DNA from: an uncultured Candidatus Melainabacteria bacterium
Lineage (GTDB): Bacteria; Cyanobacteriota; Vampirovibrionia; Gastranaerophilales; Gastranaerophilaceae
Length of the DNA stretch: 64,000 nucleotides
Direction: 5' to 3'
Assembly: GCA_949841365.1 (NCBI GenBank)
Contig: CATKZI010000001.1
Coordinates: 310,001 to 374,000, forward strand
Below, in pieces: positions 26,624 to 52,293 of the stretch. A program made the translations under genes and the position numbers. The notes under the pieces were generated by a model. That model saw nothing but the letters and a program-made list of their open reading frames with translations. It did not search any database and was not told the origin of the DNA. Within the stretch, counting starts at the first letter, position 1, and each line of letters begins with the position of its first letter.

Positions 26624-26649
26624 TTATATAACTCCTTAAGATAAAAAAA

Positions 26650-26723
<74 letters not shown>

Positions 26724-26822
26724 AAATCGTATTTAATTTACATTCCATATATTAACATAAAAATTTTTTCTTGCAAGAGGAAATTTTCCACTTATAATGA
26801 TTAGTGAAAGGAGTTTGTTAAT

Positions 26823-27583
26823 ATGAAAATGATTTATCGACTTGTCGGGGGGGGGGCACTCATAGCGTAACTCCTGCACGCTTGGGGTTTACTTTGGCTG
26901 AGGTATTGATTACTCTTGGTATTATTGGTGTCGTTGCTGCAATGACTATGCCTACACTAATGGCAAGCACTCAGAAAAAAGAATTACAAACTGGTCTGCA
27001 AAAAGCTTATTCAACTTTGAGTCAGGCGCTTATGATGTATGAGAATGATAACGGCTGGCCTGTCACATCATCTTTAGGTTATAACCAATTGAAACCTATC
27101 TTGATGAAATATATTAATACTGCTAAAGATTGCGGTAAAGGAACTGAAACTACCAATTTAGCTTGTATGCCAAATAAAGCGTATGTATCTGATCCTGACA
27201 ATTATAAAGATATTTATAAAACTTTTAACGGTAGAAGTAATATTAACTATTCAGCTTTTGATGACGGACAATTTGTGATGAATGACAATATGTTTGTAAT
27301 GATTGAAAATGCATATATTCCGGGGAATGCTAATACTTTACCTAACTTATGGATTTCAGTTGATGTAAACGGGTTTCATAAAAGGCCTAATCGTCTCGGG
27401 CAGGATTTGTTTATGTTTCAAATTATGGATGACGGTGCACTTTTGCCAATGGGTGCTCAGGGTACAAGGTTTTATAGTGAAACGGATGCTAATTGTTCAA
27501 GAACATCAACTAATAATATGAATGGTGCGGGGTGTACGGTAAAAGCATTGAATGATGAAAGTTTTTGGAAAGGTATGCCTTAA
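26823..27583 (+). CDS. Type IV pilin-like protein, frame broken at a G10 tract (phase-variable candidate)
   Basis: An ATG at 26823 with a strong AAAGGAG site starts a frame that runs MKMIYRLVGGG and stops at 26868 because the G tract at 26847-26856 has ten bases. With eleven (or eight) G the frame runs into a complete prepilin: LGFTLAEVLITLGIIG, with the G-F cleavage site and Glu at +5, then about 220 residues with late cysteines. Pilin-like proteins of this class form type IV pili or secretion pseudopili after cleavage by prepilin peptidase. In this assembly the gene is off. A TTG at 26882 keeps the second frame open but has no ribosome site. Confidence 0.8.
26847..26856 (+). repeat. G10 homopolymer tract in the prepilin gene
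   Basis: Ten G after ACTTGTC and before CA. It lies at codons 9-12 of the prepilin leader. Adding one base restores the full frame. Confidence 0.9.
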
Positions 27584-27627: not shown

Positions 27628-30213
27628 ATGCTAAGCGGAAATGAAATTAGAAAATTATATTTAGATTACTTTAAAGATAAACATCAGCATACTGTGGTTG
27701 AAAGTTCAAGTCTTGTGCCTGACAACCCGACAGTACTTTTAACAACTGCCGGTATGTTGCAGTTTTTACCGATATTTTTGGGGATTGTAAAATCTCCGTA
27801 TGATCCTGCAAGAGCAACTTCTTGCCAAAAATGCGCAAGAGCGGGCGGAAAAGATTCTGATATTGAAAACGTAGGAAGAACTCCACGCCACCATACATTC
27901 TTTGAAATGCTCGGAAACTTCTCTTTCGGCGATTATTATAAAAAAGAAATTATTCCTTGGGCTTGGGAATTTGTTACCGAAGTTTTGAAATTGGATAAAG
28001 ACAGACTTTGGATTACTATTTTTGAAACAGATGACGAAGCTTATGATATCTGGAGAAGCGTTGGTGTTCCTGCAGAAAGAATTAAACGCAAAGGCAAAAA
28101 AGATAACTTCTGGGGACCTCCGGGGGCTTCGGGTTCTTGCGGACCTTGTTCTGAAATTCACTATGATTTGGGTGAAGATTTAAAATGTTCACCGGATTGC
28201 GGTATTGATACCTGCGAATGCGACAGATGGGTTGAGATTTGGAACTTGGTATTTACAGAACTTTATCAGGATGAAGAAGGCAACCAGTCACCTTTGGAAA
28301 GCAAAAACGTTGATACAGGCATGGGCTTGGAGCGTATTACAATGGTATGTCAGGGTGTTCGTTCAACTTTTGAAACAGACTTGTTAAAATCGATTATGGA
28401 TAAAGTTTGTGAAATGAGCGGTGTTCCTTACAAAAAATCCGAAAAAACAGATATTTCGCTTCGTATTATCACAGACCACGCAAGATGTGTAACATTCTTG
28501 ATTTCTGACGGTGTAATCCCCGGTAATGAAGGCAGAAGTTACGTTTTGAGAATGATTTTGCGCCGTGCTTTGCGTCACGGAAAAATCTTGGGAATGGATT
28601 TGCCGTTCTTGTATAAACTTGTTGATATAGTTGTTGAACATTACGGCGAAGCTTATCCGGATTTGGTTAAGAATAAGGCAAAAATTGTTGATACAATTAA
28701 AAAGGAAGAAGAACGTTTTGCAAAAACTCTTGACAGAGGTTACAAAATGCTTGACGAATTTATCGACAATAAGAAAGATATTGACGGTGAAAGCGCGTTC
28801 AAACTTTATGATACATTCGGCTTTCCGTTTGAATTGACAAAAGAAATCGCGGAAGAAAACGGTTTGAATGTTGACGAAGCAGGCTACAAACAGGCTATGC
28901 AGGAACAAAAAGACCGTGCAAAAGCTGCAACTGCAAAAATTTCAGTTACAGGCGATATCAAATATGCAAAAATTGAGGACGAAGTAGGTTCAACCGAGTT
29001 TGTCGGATATACGGAAAACGAATGTGATGCAAAAATCCTTGCTACAGTTGAGGGCGACGGATATGTTGATATTGTTTTGGACAAAACACCTTTCTACGCT
29101 GAATGCGGCGGTCAGACAGGTGACAGTGGTGTTATTGAAAACGATAATTTGAAAGCGGAAGTTTTAACAACATTTAAGGTAAACAAACTTGTTGTACATC
29201 GTTCAAAAGTTATCAACGGAGAAATTACAATCGGAGAAGCTGTTAAGGCGAAAATTGATGTTGCCCGCAGAGAAGAAATAAGACTTCATCACTCATCAGC
29301 TCACTTGTTGCAATCAGCTTTAATTAAGGTTCTTGGTGATGAAGTTCATCAGGCTGGTTCGCAGGTTGAAGAAAACAGAATGCGTTTTGACTTTACATTT
29401 TCACGTGCTATGACGCCTGAAGAAATCTTTAAAACAGAAGCTATTGTAAATAAATGGATTGCCGAAGGACTTGAAATTACGACTGAAGAAATGGATATTG
29501 AACAGGCAAAATTGACAGGTGCGACAGCATTGTTCGGTGAAAAATACGAAGATGTTGTAAGAGTTGTTTCAATGGGCAATGTTTCAAAAGAATTCTGTGC
29601 GGGAACTCACGCAAGAAATACAGGCGACCTTCGTTTGTTGAAAATTGTTTCAGAGGGTGCAATTGCGGCAGGTACAAGACGTATTGAAGTTGTTGTGGGT
29701 AAATCTGCATTTGAATTTATGAATGCAAAAGTTAAAGAAATCGACAAATTGTCTTTGATGTTCAAAGTTCATTATGATGAAGTTACAGAACGTGTTCAAA
29801 AGCTTCAGGATGAAAATCGCGAACTTACTAAACAGCTTGAAAAATTGAAAGAAGAAAATTCAAGAGCTAAATTTGCAACATTCTTGTCAAAAGCTCAAGA
29901 TATCGAAGGCGGAAAACTCTTTATTACAAAAATTGAAAATGTTGACGGCAATGCGATTAAAACAGGTATTGAGTTTATGTCACAAAAATTGGGTGAAAGC
30001 ATAATTGTTTTGGCTTCTGAAAAGACAGTCGCAGTAAAAGTTTCAGACAGTTTTGTTAAAAAAGGTGTTAACGCAGGCAAAATTGTTGGCGAAATTGCAA
30101 GAGCAACGGGTGCAAACGGCGGCGGACGTCCAAATTTTGCACAAGGCGGTGTAAAAGATGCCTCAAAACTTGATGAGGTTCTTGCAAAAGTTGAAGAGGA
30201 ACTAAAAAATTGA
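27628..30213 (+). CDS. alaS: Alanyl-tRNA synthetase
   Basis: This 861-residue enzyme charges tRNA-Ala. The class II core is clear ([43 protein letters not shown]). The editing domain that clears Ser/Gly-tRNA has HHSSAHLL and [11 protein letters not shown] as zinc-binding motifs, and a DHHA1-type end [11 protein letters not shown]. Length and domain order are normal. It starts after a GAGG site and is coupled to dut. Confidence 0.98.
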
Positions 30214-33179: not shown

Positions 33180-34226
33180 ATGAAAATAAATTCTGTAAAT
33201 AATTTTTGTTTTAATCTTCCTCAATATCGGGGGGGGGGCACCTCTGCGCAAAATATACAAAATCGAGGGTTTGATTACAGTTTAACTGAAACTATCGGCA
33301 GAAGTCAGGTAAATTTTACAGGTAAAAAAGATAAAATATATCAAGAATATGACAGAATGTTTATTGATACTGTTGCTCAAAATTTGAGATTGTCAGATGA
33401 AGATAAACAAAGACTTACTGATAATATAAATACTTTTCTAAAAGCTAACGGATATAAATCGCTTGAAGCCATAGCAGGTGATAAAAATTATGAGCTGCAA
33501 GCTGATTTTATTTCTGAATTAGGTGATGATATATGCCAATCTGATTTTGATTATAATATTCTGTCAGATACTTTTCAGGAAAGAATGTACTATGACGGTC
33601 AATATAATCCCGAAGTAGATTTATATGAAAAGGATTATGAAGTCTTTGACCATATTTTAGATAAATATGATATGAATGTTGATAGAAAAGCTGAAATTTT
33701 TGATGTGCTAAAAATGCATGCTGATTGCTTGGGCGGTGAAACTGTTTTTGATTTGTTTAAACCGGAAAATAAACCGTCAGTTTTAATGGATTTGGTCAAA
33801 GAGCAATTACAGCTTGATGATGATTTAGCTACAAACTTACTTATAGATTTTGGGTTGATGGCACAAAAAGATGATGAAGCTCGTCGGGAAGGAATTTATC
33901 CCTGGAAAATGACTGCTTTGATGAATGAGCAGGCAAAAGATGAAGCAATAGCCTGTGAAATAATCGGTGAATATGATTTGGAAGGCGATGAATTCTATGA
34001 AGGTGATATAGAGGATGACGACGAATTTGACGATGATGATGAAGTTGAAGACTCAAAAAGCACTATGGAAGAAATTGCCGAACAACTCAACAGACGCCGT
34101 GATGGTGTGAGTGTTGAACAGATTTCTTATGAGCTTATGGAAAAATACGATTTGCCGTCGGAAGCCTATGAATTCATAAAAAATACTATTTATAAATATG
34201 ATTCTGAAGAATTGGCTGATGATTAA
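33180..34226 (+). CDS. Acidic hypothetical protein with an in-frame G10 tract
   Basis: A 348-residue protein starting MKINSVNNFCFNLPQYR. The G10 tract at 33229-33238 encodes R17-G-G-G and is in frame here. A SQVNFTGKK motif follows near residue 45; this kind of short N-terminal NFTGK segment is shared by many proteins of the suspected lineage, by my recollection only. The middle is helical and acidic, with a very acidic run near residue 280 (EDDDEFDDDDEVED). I do not recognise a domain. Gaining or losing one G would stop translation within about 20 codons. Start chosen at ATG 33180; a GTG six bases earlier is possible. Confidence 0.65.
   Translation: MKINSVNNFCFNLPQYRGGGTSAQNIQNRGFDYSLTETIGRSQVNFTGKKDKIYQEYDRMFIDTVAQNLRLSDEDKQRLTDNINTFLKANGYKSLEAIAGDKNYELQADFISELGDDICQSDFDYNILSDTFQERMYYDGQYNPEVDLYEKDYEVFDHILDKYDMNVDRKAEIFDVLKMHADCLGGETVFDLFKPENKPSVLMDLVKEQLQLDDDLATNLLIDFGLMAQKDDEARREGIYPWKMTALMNEQAKDEAIACEIIGEYDLEGDEFYEGDIEDDDEFDDDDEVEDSKSTMEEIAEQLNRRRDGVSVEQISYELMEKYDLPSEAYEFIKNTIYKYDSEELADD
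33229..33238 (+). repeat. G10 homopolymer tract, in frame
   Basis: Ten G after ATATC and before CACC, at codons 17-20. Eleven or nine G both lead to early stop codons. Confidence 0.9.
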
Positions 34227-41691: not shown

Positions 41692-42324
41692 TTTTCGCGG
41701 ATAATTTTTTGGAATATGCCAGCTGTTTCGTTGAATAAGTAAACTGCAATACCAGCCTGAAGTTTTACATTCATCATATAAACTCTCTTCGGTTATATTC
41801 GTAAAATATGCATAATTTGCAAAAACGCCTTTTTCGACATAGTTTTTAGAGATTTTTCCTTTAGGGTCGAACATAAATACAAAAGAGTTTGTACCGTCGT
41901 TTCTTTCTTTATTATCTGTGACAAATCTCATATATGTTCCTGCATATACCACATAAGTTCCATCGGTAAAATATAAATATAATGATGAACTTCCGTCTTG
42001 TTTTATTTCTTTGACATTTTGCATATATTGTTTAAGGTACTTATCATACATTTCCTGAGGAGTATTCCATTCCCAATCTTTTGCGGGCCCGTTGTCAACT
42101 TCTGCCATTTTAACAACTTGATTTATTGTAGTAAAAAATTTTCTTAATTTTGTTTCAACTACTTTTTTTCTATGATTTTGAATAAGTGTCGGCATAGTCA
42201 TTGCCGCAACAACCCCGATAATTCCTAGTGTTATTAGCACTTCTGCCAAAGTAAATCCAACATGACCAATTTTTTTCGGAATGACTACGTGCGTAGCACC
42301 TGCCAAGGTAAAACCTTTTTTCAT
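41686..42324 (-). CDS. Type IV pilin-like protein with a duplicated leader
   Basis: A 212-residue prepilin. The leader reads MKKGFTLAGATHVVIPKK, IGHV, then GFTLAEVLITLGI, so the GFTLA segment occurs twice with a 14-residue insert between. Only the second copy has Glu at +5 after the G-F cleavage site and leads into the hydrophobic helix, so it is the likely processing site. The mature part is about 185 residues with two cysteines near the end (DECKTSGWYCS). It lacks a G tract and is in frame. An AAGGAG site precedes the ATG. Confidence 0.85.
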   Translation of the reverse strand: MKKGFTLAGATHVVIPKKIGHVGFTLAEVLITLGIIGVVAAMTMPTLIQNHRKKVVETKLRKFFTTINQVVKMAEVDNGPAKDWEWNTPQEMYDKYLKQYMQNVKEIKQDGSSSLYLYFTDGTYVVYAGTYMRFVTDNKERNDGTNSFVFMFDPKGKISKNYVEKGVFANYAYFTNITEESLYDECKTSGWYCSLLIQRNSWHIPKNYPRKL

Positions 42325-49657: not shown

Positions 49658-50543
49658 TTAAGTTTGATTCATATCAGTAATAATTTTTTCCTTTAGACCT
49701 TCATAGTGATTAAGAACTCTGTTTAAATCTTTAAAAAATAATTTTTCGCCCTGATCATTTATATTAGTAAGGCAAGGACCATTTTTTGTTGAAGATATTG
49801 TTCTTGGAAAAGGAATATTTTTGTTTATTATGTTGATTTTTGTACCGTTTAAAACTGCCATAAGCCAGAACCAAATGTCATCATTGGTTGGTGCAAGCGT
49901 TGTGAATAATTTTTCATCAGTAACATCTTTATAAAGAGTGTTTGGCGGATATAATACTCCTCCGCATCCTACTAATTTATTTGCAAATGACGGATTTTTA
50001 TACCATTTAACAGCTTCAACATTGAATTCACCGTTTTCTTTTAAAGAAAATTTTGTTGTCCTGTGGCAATGAATAAGCTTGGGATTTTTCTCATAAGCTT
50101 TCCATAACAATTTTACGAGGTTTTTGTCATATATAAAATCGTCATCAACAGTTATGATAATATCATTCGGGTATTGCTTAAGTGTCGGGATTAATTTTTT
50201 ATATGATTTTATGTTACCTTTGTTCCAACTTATAGTCAGTCCGAATTTTTGTAAATTTAAAAGATTTTCAGGTAAATCTTTTTCTTTATTTGGAAAATCA
50301 TCTTCAGATAATTGTAAAATTACCATATTTGGTTTTTTAGTCTGACATAATAAAGAACTGATAGTAATATGCAATGTTTTAATTCTGGCAGGAAAGGATG
50401 TTAGAGATATTATTAAAATGGGGGGGGGGGCAACTTTCTATGCCTGATTTTTTAACTATAGGTGCAATATTATATTTAAATTTTAGTCCGCAAATATGTA
50501 TAATTCTTTTATCATCCAGTTTTTCTTTATAAAATAATTTCAT
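49658..50543 (-). CDS. Glycosyltransferase-like protein, frame broken at a C11 tract (phase-variable candidate)
   Basis: Translation from the ATG at 50543 (AAGGAG site) gives a 37-residue linker-like start with HICGLKFKYN, then C38 and prolines, and stops at 50379 because the C tract has eleven bases. With ten C the frame continues into ILIISLTSFPARIKTLHITI and a full GT-like domain, 294 residues, ending EKIITDMNQT. That domain is a close paralogue of the C-terminal half of the gene at 47939-49588. So the gene is off by one base here. Its start overlaps the upstream gene by 17 bases. Confidence 0.8.
50420..50430 (-). repeat. C11 (G11 on +) homopolymer tract in the GT-like gene
   Basis: Eleven G on the + strand after AAAAT and before CAACT. 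It begins at codon 38 (TGC then C). Ten C would be in frame. Confidence 0.9.
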
Positions 50544-52293
50544 TTTTCTCCTTAGATGGTAATTCCAACATGTCACCCAAAATTCTGTTATATTTTGATG
50601 GTATAAATTCTTCTGTACCGCTGCCCGAAGTAAAAGTCATTTCGCCAAAATAAATTTTTCCGTCAACATTATAAAAGTCTACTCTTACCAAATTTAAATC
50701 TTTAGATAAGATTTTCGCCAATTCAACCATTTTTTCAAGATTTTCAGGTGGTAAAATTTCTTTTTTGGTATTTTTCCAGGTTATTAAAAATGGCTGTAAT
50801 TCCCATTTTGTGTTGTATAAATTTCTTCTGTGGTCATCAAATCTGCCTTGATCAATCCAGATAAATTCGGGTTTACCGTTAAAACATAAAAATTTGTAAT
50901 CATTTAATTCTTTATTACTGTCTTCAATATAACTTTCAGCAATAATTTTAGGGATGATATCTTTATAATGTATTTCTAAGCCATGCTTATAAGCAAAATT
51001 TTCTTTCATCCATTTGTTGATTTTTTTGCGAGCTTCTTTTTTATTAAATTTTGACTTGTCTTTTACAATTATATTATATGCACATCCGTGATTGCACTTA
51101 AGTACAAATCTATCCGGCAGTTTGTCAAAATCAATATCATCAAACTTATCCCAAACGCCTAAAAGAGGAATAAGGTATTCTTCTCCGATTTTCTCTTTAA
51201 CCCATTCTCTAACCAGATATTTATCTGCGAGTTTGGTTTTTAACGGTGTGCTGTCGTAAAGTTTCAGCCATTGAATTTTTTCGTTAAAGGTTTTTGGATT
51301 TTCTAAATTTAAAACTTGACCTGTTGCTCTGAAAAACCAAGACTTAAGATATGCTTCATACTTGTCGGGGGGGGGGCATTTCTGAGTTCTTATTTTTATT
51401 TTAAATCCGAATATTTTTATTATTACGTGAATGATGTCCTTTTGGATATCAAAAAGTTTACCTATTCTGTATTGTGCAGGCAAAAATTTGTCCATTTGCT
51501 CCGCATAGTAATCTTTTTGTGTTTTATCACATAGTTTAAGCTCAAATTTGAAACCTCTGCGGGCACATTTGTAAAACTCTTTGTGCCATTGCTTCATTTT
51601 GTTGTGTTTCTCCAGTAAATCTTTCAATGCAGAGAATGCTTCTAAAACGCAATATGTATATTTTCCTCTGGAACTTGATAAACAGCCCGAGTGTGATATT
51701 CTGTAGGTTACAAGTGCATCAGGTATGCTGACAATTGAAGATGCGAGAATTGCTGACGCATAATTGAAGTATACATCATTGCAAACTTTTGTTTCCTGAC
51801 ACCTTATACCATTATCTTTAATAAGACTTGCTTTATATAATTTTGTAAATAAGGGTACAGGATGTATCTTAAAAATGTTATCTGTTTTCTTGCGTTTTTT
51901 AGATGGTTTTTTTAGTTCATTTGTTGCTTCGTCAAAATATTGGCATTTGCATAAACAAATATCGGCATCACCGATTGAAGTCAGTAATTTTTCTAAAGCA
52001 TTTGGTTCTATATAATCATCGCTGTCTAAAAAATATAAATACTCACAGTTAGAATTTTCGATTCCGGTATTTCTGGCTTTTCCTGCTCCGCTGTTTTCCT
52101 GGTTAATAATTTTTATTCTGTTATCTTTTGCTTGGTATTCTTGCAGAATATTTAATGAATTATCGGTAGAGCCGTCATTAACGCAAATTATTTCAATATC
52201 TTTTAATGTTTGATTAATTACACTTTCTAAACATTGTTCTAAATATTTTTCCGTATTGTATACCGGTATGATTACTGATACTCTACCCATCAA
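50527..52293 (-). CDS. GT2 glycosyltransferase fused to TupA-like ATP-grasp through a C10 tract
   Basis: A 588-residue fusion. Residues 5-290 are a GT2 enzyme: VSVIIPVYNTEKYLEQCLES, ICVNDGSTDNS, SGAGKARNTGIENS and FLDSDDYIEP. A linker IIKIFGFKIKIRTQK leads to C306-P-P-P, encoded by TGC plus a C10 tract, and then the TupA-like ATP-grasp domain: FNEKIQWLKLYDSTPLKTKL, RFVLKCNHGCAYN and GEMTFTSGSG. The tract is in frame. Nine or eleven C would give the GT2 domain alone. An AAGGAG site precedes the ATG. Confidence 0.82.
   Translation of the reverse strand: MMGRVSVIIPVYNTEKYLEQCLESVINQTLKDIEIICVNDGSTDNSLNILQEYQAKDNRIKIINQENSGAGKARNTGIENSNCEYLYFLDSDDYIEPNALEKLLTSIGDADICLCKCQYFDEATNELKKPSKKRKKTDNIFKIHPVPLFTKLYKASLIKDNGIRCQETKVCNDVYFNYASAILASSIVSIPDALVTYRISHSGCLSSSRGKYTYCVLEAFSALKDLLEKHNKMKQWHKEFYKCARRGFKFELKLCDKTQKDYYAEQMDKFLPAQYRIGKLFDIQKDIIHVIIKIFGFKIKIRTQKCPPPDKYEAYLKSWFFRATGQVLNLENPKTFNEKIQWLKLYDSTPLKTKLADKYLVREWVKEKIGEEYLIPLLGVWDKFDDIDFDKLPDRFVLKCNHGCAYNIIVKDKSKFNKKEARKKINKWMKENFAYKHGLEIHYKDIIPKIIAESYIEDSNKELNDYKFLCFNGKPEFIWIDQGRFDDHRRNLYNTKWELQPFLITWKNTKKEILPPENLEKMVELAKILSKDLNLVRVDFYNVDGKIYFGEMTFTSGSGTEEFIPSKYNRILGDMLELPSKEKNEIIL
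51081..51300 (-). repeat. Direct repeat copy 2 within the TupA-like module
   Basis: Partner of 49231-49450. The similarity ends about 65 bases before the C10 tract, where the two proteins diverge into different linkers. Confidence 0.8.
51367..51376 (-). repeat. C10 (G10 on +) homopolymer tract, in frame
   Basis: Ten G on the + strand after ACTTGTC and before CA. The 19 bases ACTTGTC-G10-CA are identical to those at 26840-26858, although the coding strand is the opposite one. Confidence 0.9.

Follow-up and report, generated by a model that had tools for sequence, protein, structure and literature searches.

The pilin gene considered here lies in a window of 64,000 nucleotides, by which the whole stretch of DNA that was analysed is meant. 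It is flanked by a tRNA-Arg gene on the minus strand (26649-26724) and by alaS (27628-30213), the latter identified by its own sequence and by how strongly the neighbour is conserved. Direct reading of the sequence bears out an earlier, sequence-only reading, according to which a well-signalled prepilin gene is one base out of frame at a tract of ten G: the ATG at 26823 opens a frame that is closed after 15 codons by TAA at 26868-26870. One extra G gives a complete prepilin, as had also been proposed, in an open frame of 253 amino acids that reads MKMIYRLVGGGGTHSVTPARLG and, beyond the cleavage site, FTLAEVLITLGIIGVV, with Gly preceding the cleavage site and Glu at +5. The features of this gene and the other tracts in the window are:

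26771-26798, plus strand: promoter-like TTGCAA-16-TATAAT, weakly indicated (a scan of the region gave 7 such sites against 5.1 in shuffles, near chance)
26807-26813, plus strand: ribosome-binding site AAAGGAG, read directly
26823-26870, plus strand: ATG and short frame, 15 codons and then a stop when the tract is G10, read directly
26847-26856, plus strand: G10 tract in the context TC-G10-CA, the proposed switch; read directly, with the same length and register in the syntenic ortholog of the related genome G028
26857-26887, plus strand: remainder of the prepilin leader in the frame for eleven G, with Gly last; identical in G028 up to 26878
26888-27583, plus strand: mature pilin FTLAEVLITLG..., open until the stop codon (sequence, dN/dS, profiles, structure model)
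33229-33238, plus strand: second G10 tract, in an uncharacterised gene of 350 amino acids, in frame at ten; the ten bases in G028 are GAGATAGGGG
50420-50430, plus strand: G11 tract within a minus-strand glycosyltransferase-like gene (50576-49658), closed at 11 and open at 10
51367-51376, plus strand: G10 tract within a minus-strand glycosyltransferase / TupA-like ATP-grasp gene whose frame is open at ten

Runs of at least eight G give 13 overlapping matches, located in the four window tracts, against 0.08 matches expected; three of these tracts, at 33229, 50420 and 51367, were missing from the sequence-only reading. The G028 copy of the glycosyltransferase-like gene at 50420-50430 carries G10 with an altered flank and, as assembled, is out of frame too. 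For the tract at 33229, an insertion of G10 into an empty site was considered and rejected, this tract being the sole one outside pilin leaders with a clear tract-free counterpart: in G028 this counterpart is equal in length and has substitutions, without an insertion.

The product of the restored frame has what is expected of a prepilin, namely a leader, a Gly-Phe cleavage motif, Glu at +5 and a long N-terminal helix, the motif and the helix also being found at the N-terminus of the structure model (pLDDT 86, pTM 0.82). The NCBIfam profiles for GspG and ComGE match below their cut-offs, and PDB profile matches over the helix comprise GspG, PilE, PilA and geopilin chains. For the head, no match was found in Pfam, nor did the structure model give a PDB fold match at an E value of 0.001. 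Pilus-type ATPases are encoded in the same genome, which contains four T2SSE matches over the cut-off for the PilB/GspE family.

The tract is one of many. In its own genome (G000; 1,691,348 bases in 19 contigs) there are 50 tracts of at least eight G, 42 of them exactly G10, and most are located close to pilin gene starts. The relatives that were found among GTDB contigs are Gastranaerophilales, with Candidatus Scatousia among the named matches, and the comparison included one genome per species, all of them consensus assemblies and most or all metagenomic. Across the genus about 2,080 tracts occur in 33 genomes, of which 32 are positive (range 0 to 179 per genome); 78% of the tracts are exactly ten long and 7% eleven, and in the stretches of G026 even 41 of 43 have ten, the stretches analysed having been taken around listed tracts. 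Outside the genus, the motif CG10CA is sporadic. Pilin matches number 62 in the own genome and up to 200 first-look candidates in others. Similarly built prepilin genes would range from dozens to probably more than a hundred per genome. The numbers of pilins and tracts are correlated across the genus (Spearman 0.72), with G021 and G029 as exceptions that have more than 100 pilin candidates each yet fewer than 10 tracts. A genome-wide signal resembling KOPS or Chi is unlikely because the tract count follows the pilin count and several congeners are nearly devoid of tracts. A separate observation is that several contigs start within about 150 bases of a tract (C1:10 and C4:133 of G000; C89, C128 and C143 of G029; C80, C91 and C119 of G013; C71 and C72 of G021), as if assembly graphs fork at tracts.

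What sets the pilins apart is the register of the tract. In the own genome, 39 pilins have the tract after the start codon and ahead of the cleavage site; 22 of them read it as G and 17 as C, and in 35 of the 39 the frame is of the n = 2 mod 3 class, which is closed at ten. The same class accounts for 26 of 37 pilins in G028, 7 of 11 in G011, 26 of 30 in G004, 26 of 26 in G026 and 3 of 3 in G031; over the six genomes, 123 of the 146 tract-bearing prepilins, sense and antisense together, need one base beyond ten. Some 87% of tract-bearing prepilins are off in the assemblies, and the number that are on, 19 of 122, is lower than the expected one third (p 8e-6, with kinship ignored). Registers that need one extra base outnumber those that need one fewer by 99 to 5, which is more than being off at ten requires and may be explained by shared descent. 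Among tract genes other than pilins, on the contrary, 19 of 25 with a clear frame are open at ten (Fisher p 7e-8, ignoring kinship and with starts chosen automatically), and this contrast speaks most strongly for selection on the register. Pilins that are open at ten do exist (L008, L009, L010), and G002 (loci L277-L296) deviates, with tracts of 9-15, other flanks, the leader MKKITISALNPSGGG, registers 0 and 2, and 3 of 8 pilins on. A start codon downstream of the tract was rejected as a general explanation because leaders read by eye have no ATG, GTG or TTG in the pilin frame between tract and cleavage site, except in the window gene, which has no ATG between tract and pilin body and offers TTG at 26882 as its only candidate. 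The description of the window gene as a pilin caught in the off state proved too narrow, G10 and off being the usual condition of nearly all tract-bearing pilins of the genus.

Pilin genes that are off are intact and under purifying selection, with dN/dS around 0.1. Eight tract-bearing pairs from G000 and G028, taken as reciprocal best hits at a protein identity of 67% or more, gave values of 0.09-0.15, and the window gene has 0.11 against its ortholog. In G028 that ortholog occupies the same place and has the same G10 in the same closed register, with about 38 bases around the tract identical within an alignment of 81%; the syntenic pilin adjacent to alaS in G002 has G12 and is open. Tract lengths range from 8 to 13 in G000, G028, G011 and G004 and from 9 to 15 in G002, ten being strongly favoured. 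Among homologous tracts, 7 of 29 pairs differ by one or two bases and 22 are equal, against 19.6 expected, and such near-independent lengths would be as expected under fast length turnover. The suggestion that relatives should differ in tract length is therefore supported by some homologs but not by the G028 ortholog of the window gene. Two loci of the own genome, L077 (C6:121198) and L098 (C4:122338), have interrupted tracts with a total of ten (CCCCTCCCCC and GGGGGTGGGG, respectively), intact bodies and closed frames, which would fit recently locked-off copies. The tract of L094 is also interrupted and its frame is open. A close pilin relative that lacks a tract, L049 (G011:C32), has the leader MRQKA and a stop codon near its C-terminus.

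Pilin leaders also carry a short palindrome, GCTACGYRCGTAGY, which is present in the window at 42284-42297 and in L027, L034, L042, L079, L111 and L115; in some of these FTLAE is duplicated on both sides, as with a small mobile repeat inserted in frame. Inserted leader repeats encode LSKSPSLESLF...VAGQAARLG or SRLTRHIG, apparently a single repeat read in both orientations, and are carried by L005, L009, L015, L037, L010, L034 and many loci of G028.

The long tracts are a discrete class, since runs of six to eight G are nearly absent. The 0.6 Mb of sampled stretches contain on their G strand 2443 G3 runs, 440 G4, 64 G5 and 3 G6 but no G7, followed by 3 G8, 10 G9, 80 G10 and 10 G11. At lengths of nine or more there are 105 runs on the G strand and 0 on the opposite strand, in stretches that were chosen partly around tracts and oriented by them, a majority orientation that favours the strand contrast. 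Without majority orientation, adjacent tracts on a contig still share their strand in three genomes (p 6e-8 to 1e-10 or lower). The genome of the window shows a single flip of the tract strand, located between 259.6 and 297.9 kb of contig 1. This interval includes dnaN, which was recognised by eye, at about 272-273 kb, and GC skew shifts there from largely negative values to mixed or positive ones, as expected near an origin. Because the single flip coincides with dnaN and the change in skew, the G of long tracts in the sampled stretches is read as lying on the leading strand, regardless of gene direction. The lock is near-complete rather than absolute, with a few opposite tracts in G004 and G002. 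The tracts are not the tail of a general skew of G runs, as only 55-65% of runs of 3-5 are on the leading strand and the rare runs of 6-8 are unbiased, whereas all runs of at least nine in these stretches are leading. Of 194 runs, 164 are preceded and 178 followed by C, and the TC and CA borders are common to sense pilins, antisense pilins and other genes.

We consider a translational slipped-strand phase-variation locus, with the G10 tract as its switch, to be the likely explanation, and this locus to be part of a genus-wide set of prepilins that rests off. In each prepilin the short leader contains a homopolymer tract, placed after the start codon and ahead of the cleavage site, and slipped-strand replication would alter the length of this tract by one base. 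At the usual length of ten the gene is out of frame, and at 11 (or 8) in frame, so that most pilins would be off in most cells, a small and changing subset would be on, and each cell would obtain a sparse, random pilus repertoire. Other tract genes, glycosyltransferases among them, mostly have the opposite register and are on at ten. Slippage in vivo, expression following it and a benefit to the cell are steps that we infer. Phase variation would explain the position of the tract, the off state of genes with a selected body and the near-independent lengths of homologs: a homopolymer inside the reading frame decides whether the full pilin frame is open, its length varies between relatives, and the gene stays intact and under selection while off. 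The proposal of phase variation in the sequence-only reading is strengthened to this extent by the conserved window gene, the differing homologs and the lack of a downstream ATG, but the picture of one gene caught off is too narrow, the syntenic G028 ortholog being G10 and off as well. Against phase variation count the presence of MutS in 32 of the 33 genomes, which should damp slippage and which also disposes of absent mismatch repair as an explanation, tract lengths that are more uniform than in Campylobacter, and the interrupted yet closed L077 and L098. The exact ten, the strand lock and the TC-G10-CA context go beyond ordinary phase variation and are left unaccounted for by it, the lock and the borders requiring an additional cause. 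Orientation-dependent instability would be our guess for the lock.

The near-constant ten and the single register that needs one extra base, seen in sense as well as antisense genes, could also be understood if the DNA were fixed at G10 and the in-frame product were made as a small share through programmed recoding, by slippage of RNA polymerase or -1 ribosomal frameshifting. The selection on bodies whose frame is closed at ten fits this as well. Nevertheless, we regard recoding as unlikely. The slippery run is neither pure nor of fixed length across the family, as homologs include lengths of 9, 11, 12 and 13, interrupted tracts remain closed, some pilins (L008, L009, L010) are open at ten, and the same run leaves the frame of non-pilin genes open at that length. 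Moreover, G and C runs alike would need to recode in one direction, although slips at the proline codon CCC are usually of the +1 kind.

A further possibility is that TC-G10-CA is primarily a replication or recombination element of the DNA, serving as a joint for the exchange of promoter-leader cassettes among pilin bodies, with the effect on the frame being secondary; this would bear a loose resemblance to the pilin variation of Neisseria that starts from a G4. The strand lock in both gene orientations, the C borders that are shared with non-pilin genes and the gap at runs of 6-8 would suit such an element. In addition, pilins of the own genome with unrelated bodies are similar from the promoter up to the tract, where the similarity ends, which raises the possibility of leader exchange at the tract, and related bodies occur with a G or a C leader. 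However, upstream and body similarity are correlated in G004 (Mantel r 0.27 and 0.67), a slowly evolving 5' end joined to fast-evolving bodies would give the same picture, and the closed pilins and open other genes at ten are left unexplained. We hold this account to be rather improbable, and would judge with similar reserve a combination in which TC-G10-CA is both a default-off frame switch and a cassette-swap joint among dozens to more than 100 pilin bodies, so that each cell would bear a sparse and combinatorial coat of pili. Least credible is an artefact, with true tracts of G11 miscalled, or decay of the genes: the genomes are consensus assemblies and some contigs end at tracts, such as C1:10 and C4:133 of the own genome, but G10 recurs over many genomes with contig names (NODE, k127/k141, idba) that indicate several assemblers, G11 and longer were called elsewhere, the off bodies are intact at a dN/dS of about 0.1, and an assembly error at G10, a danger that had been pointed out at the outset, is largely contradicted by other genes, whose frames are intact with G10 and would be disrupted if tracts were uniformly undercalled.

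The closest tested case to phase-variable prepilins is the pilus switch of Bifidobacterium breve UCC2003, in which the sortase-pilus loci bbr_0113 and bbr_1889 switch by G-tract slippage (PMC9187656). In culture, one locus was 37% G11, 59% G12 and 3% G10, and the in-frame G10 was about 30% in mice; in-frame lengths are a minority in culture that rises in the mouse gut (PMC9187656). The likeness comprises a gut commensal, a short and well-signalled upstream frame, a G10/G11 tract and a pilin that is out of frame as annotated (PMC9187656). The Campylobacter phasome is similar in that the surface genes of an AT-rich gut bacterium contain numerous poly-G tracts of 9-10, with 53% of the tracts having nine and 26% ten (PMC6321876). 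Mutation hotspots of the GnT type, at which G runs are extended (T to G) mainly on the leading strand (PMC12344412), share the leading-strand preference and could help to build or purify G tracts; they might contribute to the tracts described here. Those hotspots are not a switch but a bias in substitutions, described for short runs, and leave the gap at 6-8, the peak at ten and the C borders unaccounted for. While B. breve is an actinobacterium with two loci for sortase pili and measured switching, the present set consists of dozens of type IV-like prepilins with G or C on the coding strand, strand-locked, of uniform length and with predicted switching. In Neisseria gonorrhoeae, antigenic variation of pilE is G4-dependent, and a single expressed locus takes up sequence from silent copies. 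Here, too, a G-rich DNA element is tied to pilin diversity in one orientation, but the pilin genes are numerous and complete, and each has a start of its own.

Among the papers searched, none combined Gastranaerophilales with phase variation. If switching is confirmed, this would be, judging from that search, the first phase-variable pilin set in gut-dwelling non-photosynthetic relatives of cyanobacteria, and an unusually large one. If true, a commensal with a small genome would vary its surface structure with one repeated DNA device that rests off. The strand lock in both gene orientations makes it testable how the direction of replication decides where hypermutable G runs persist.
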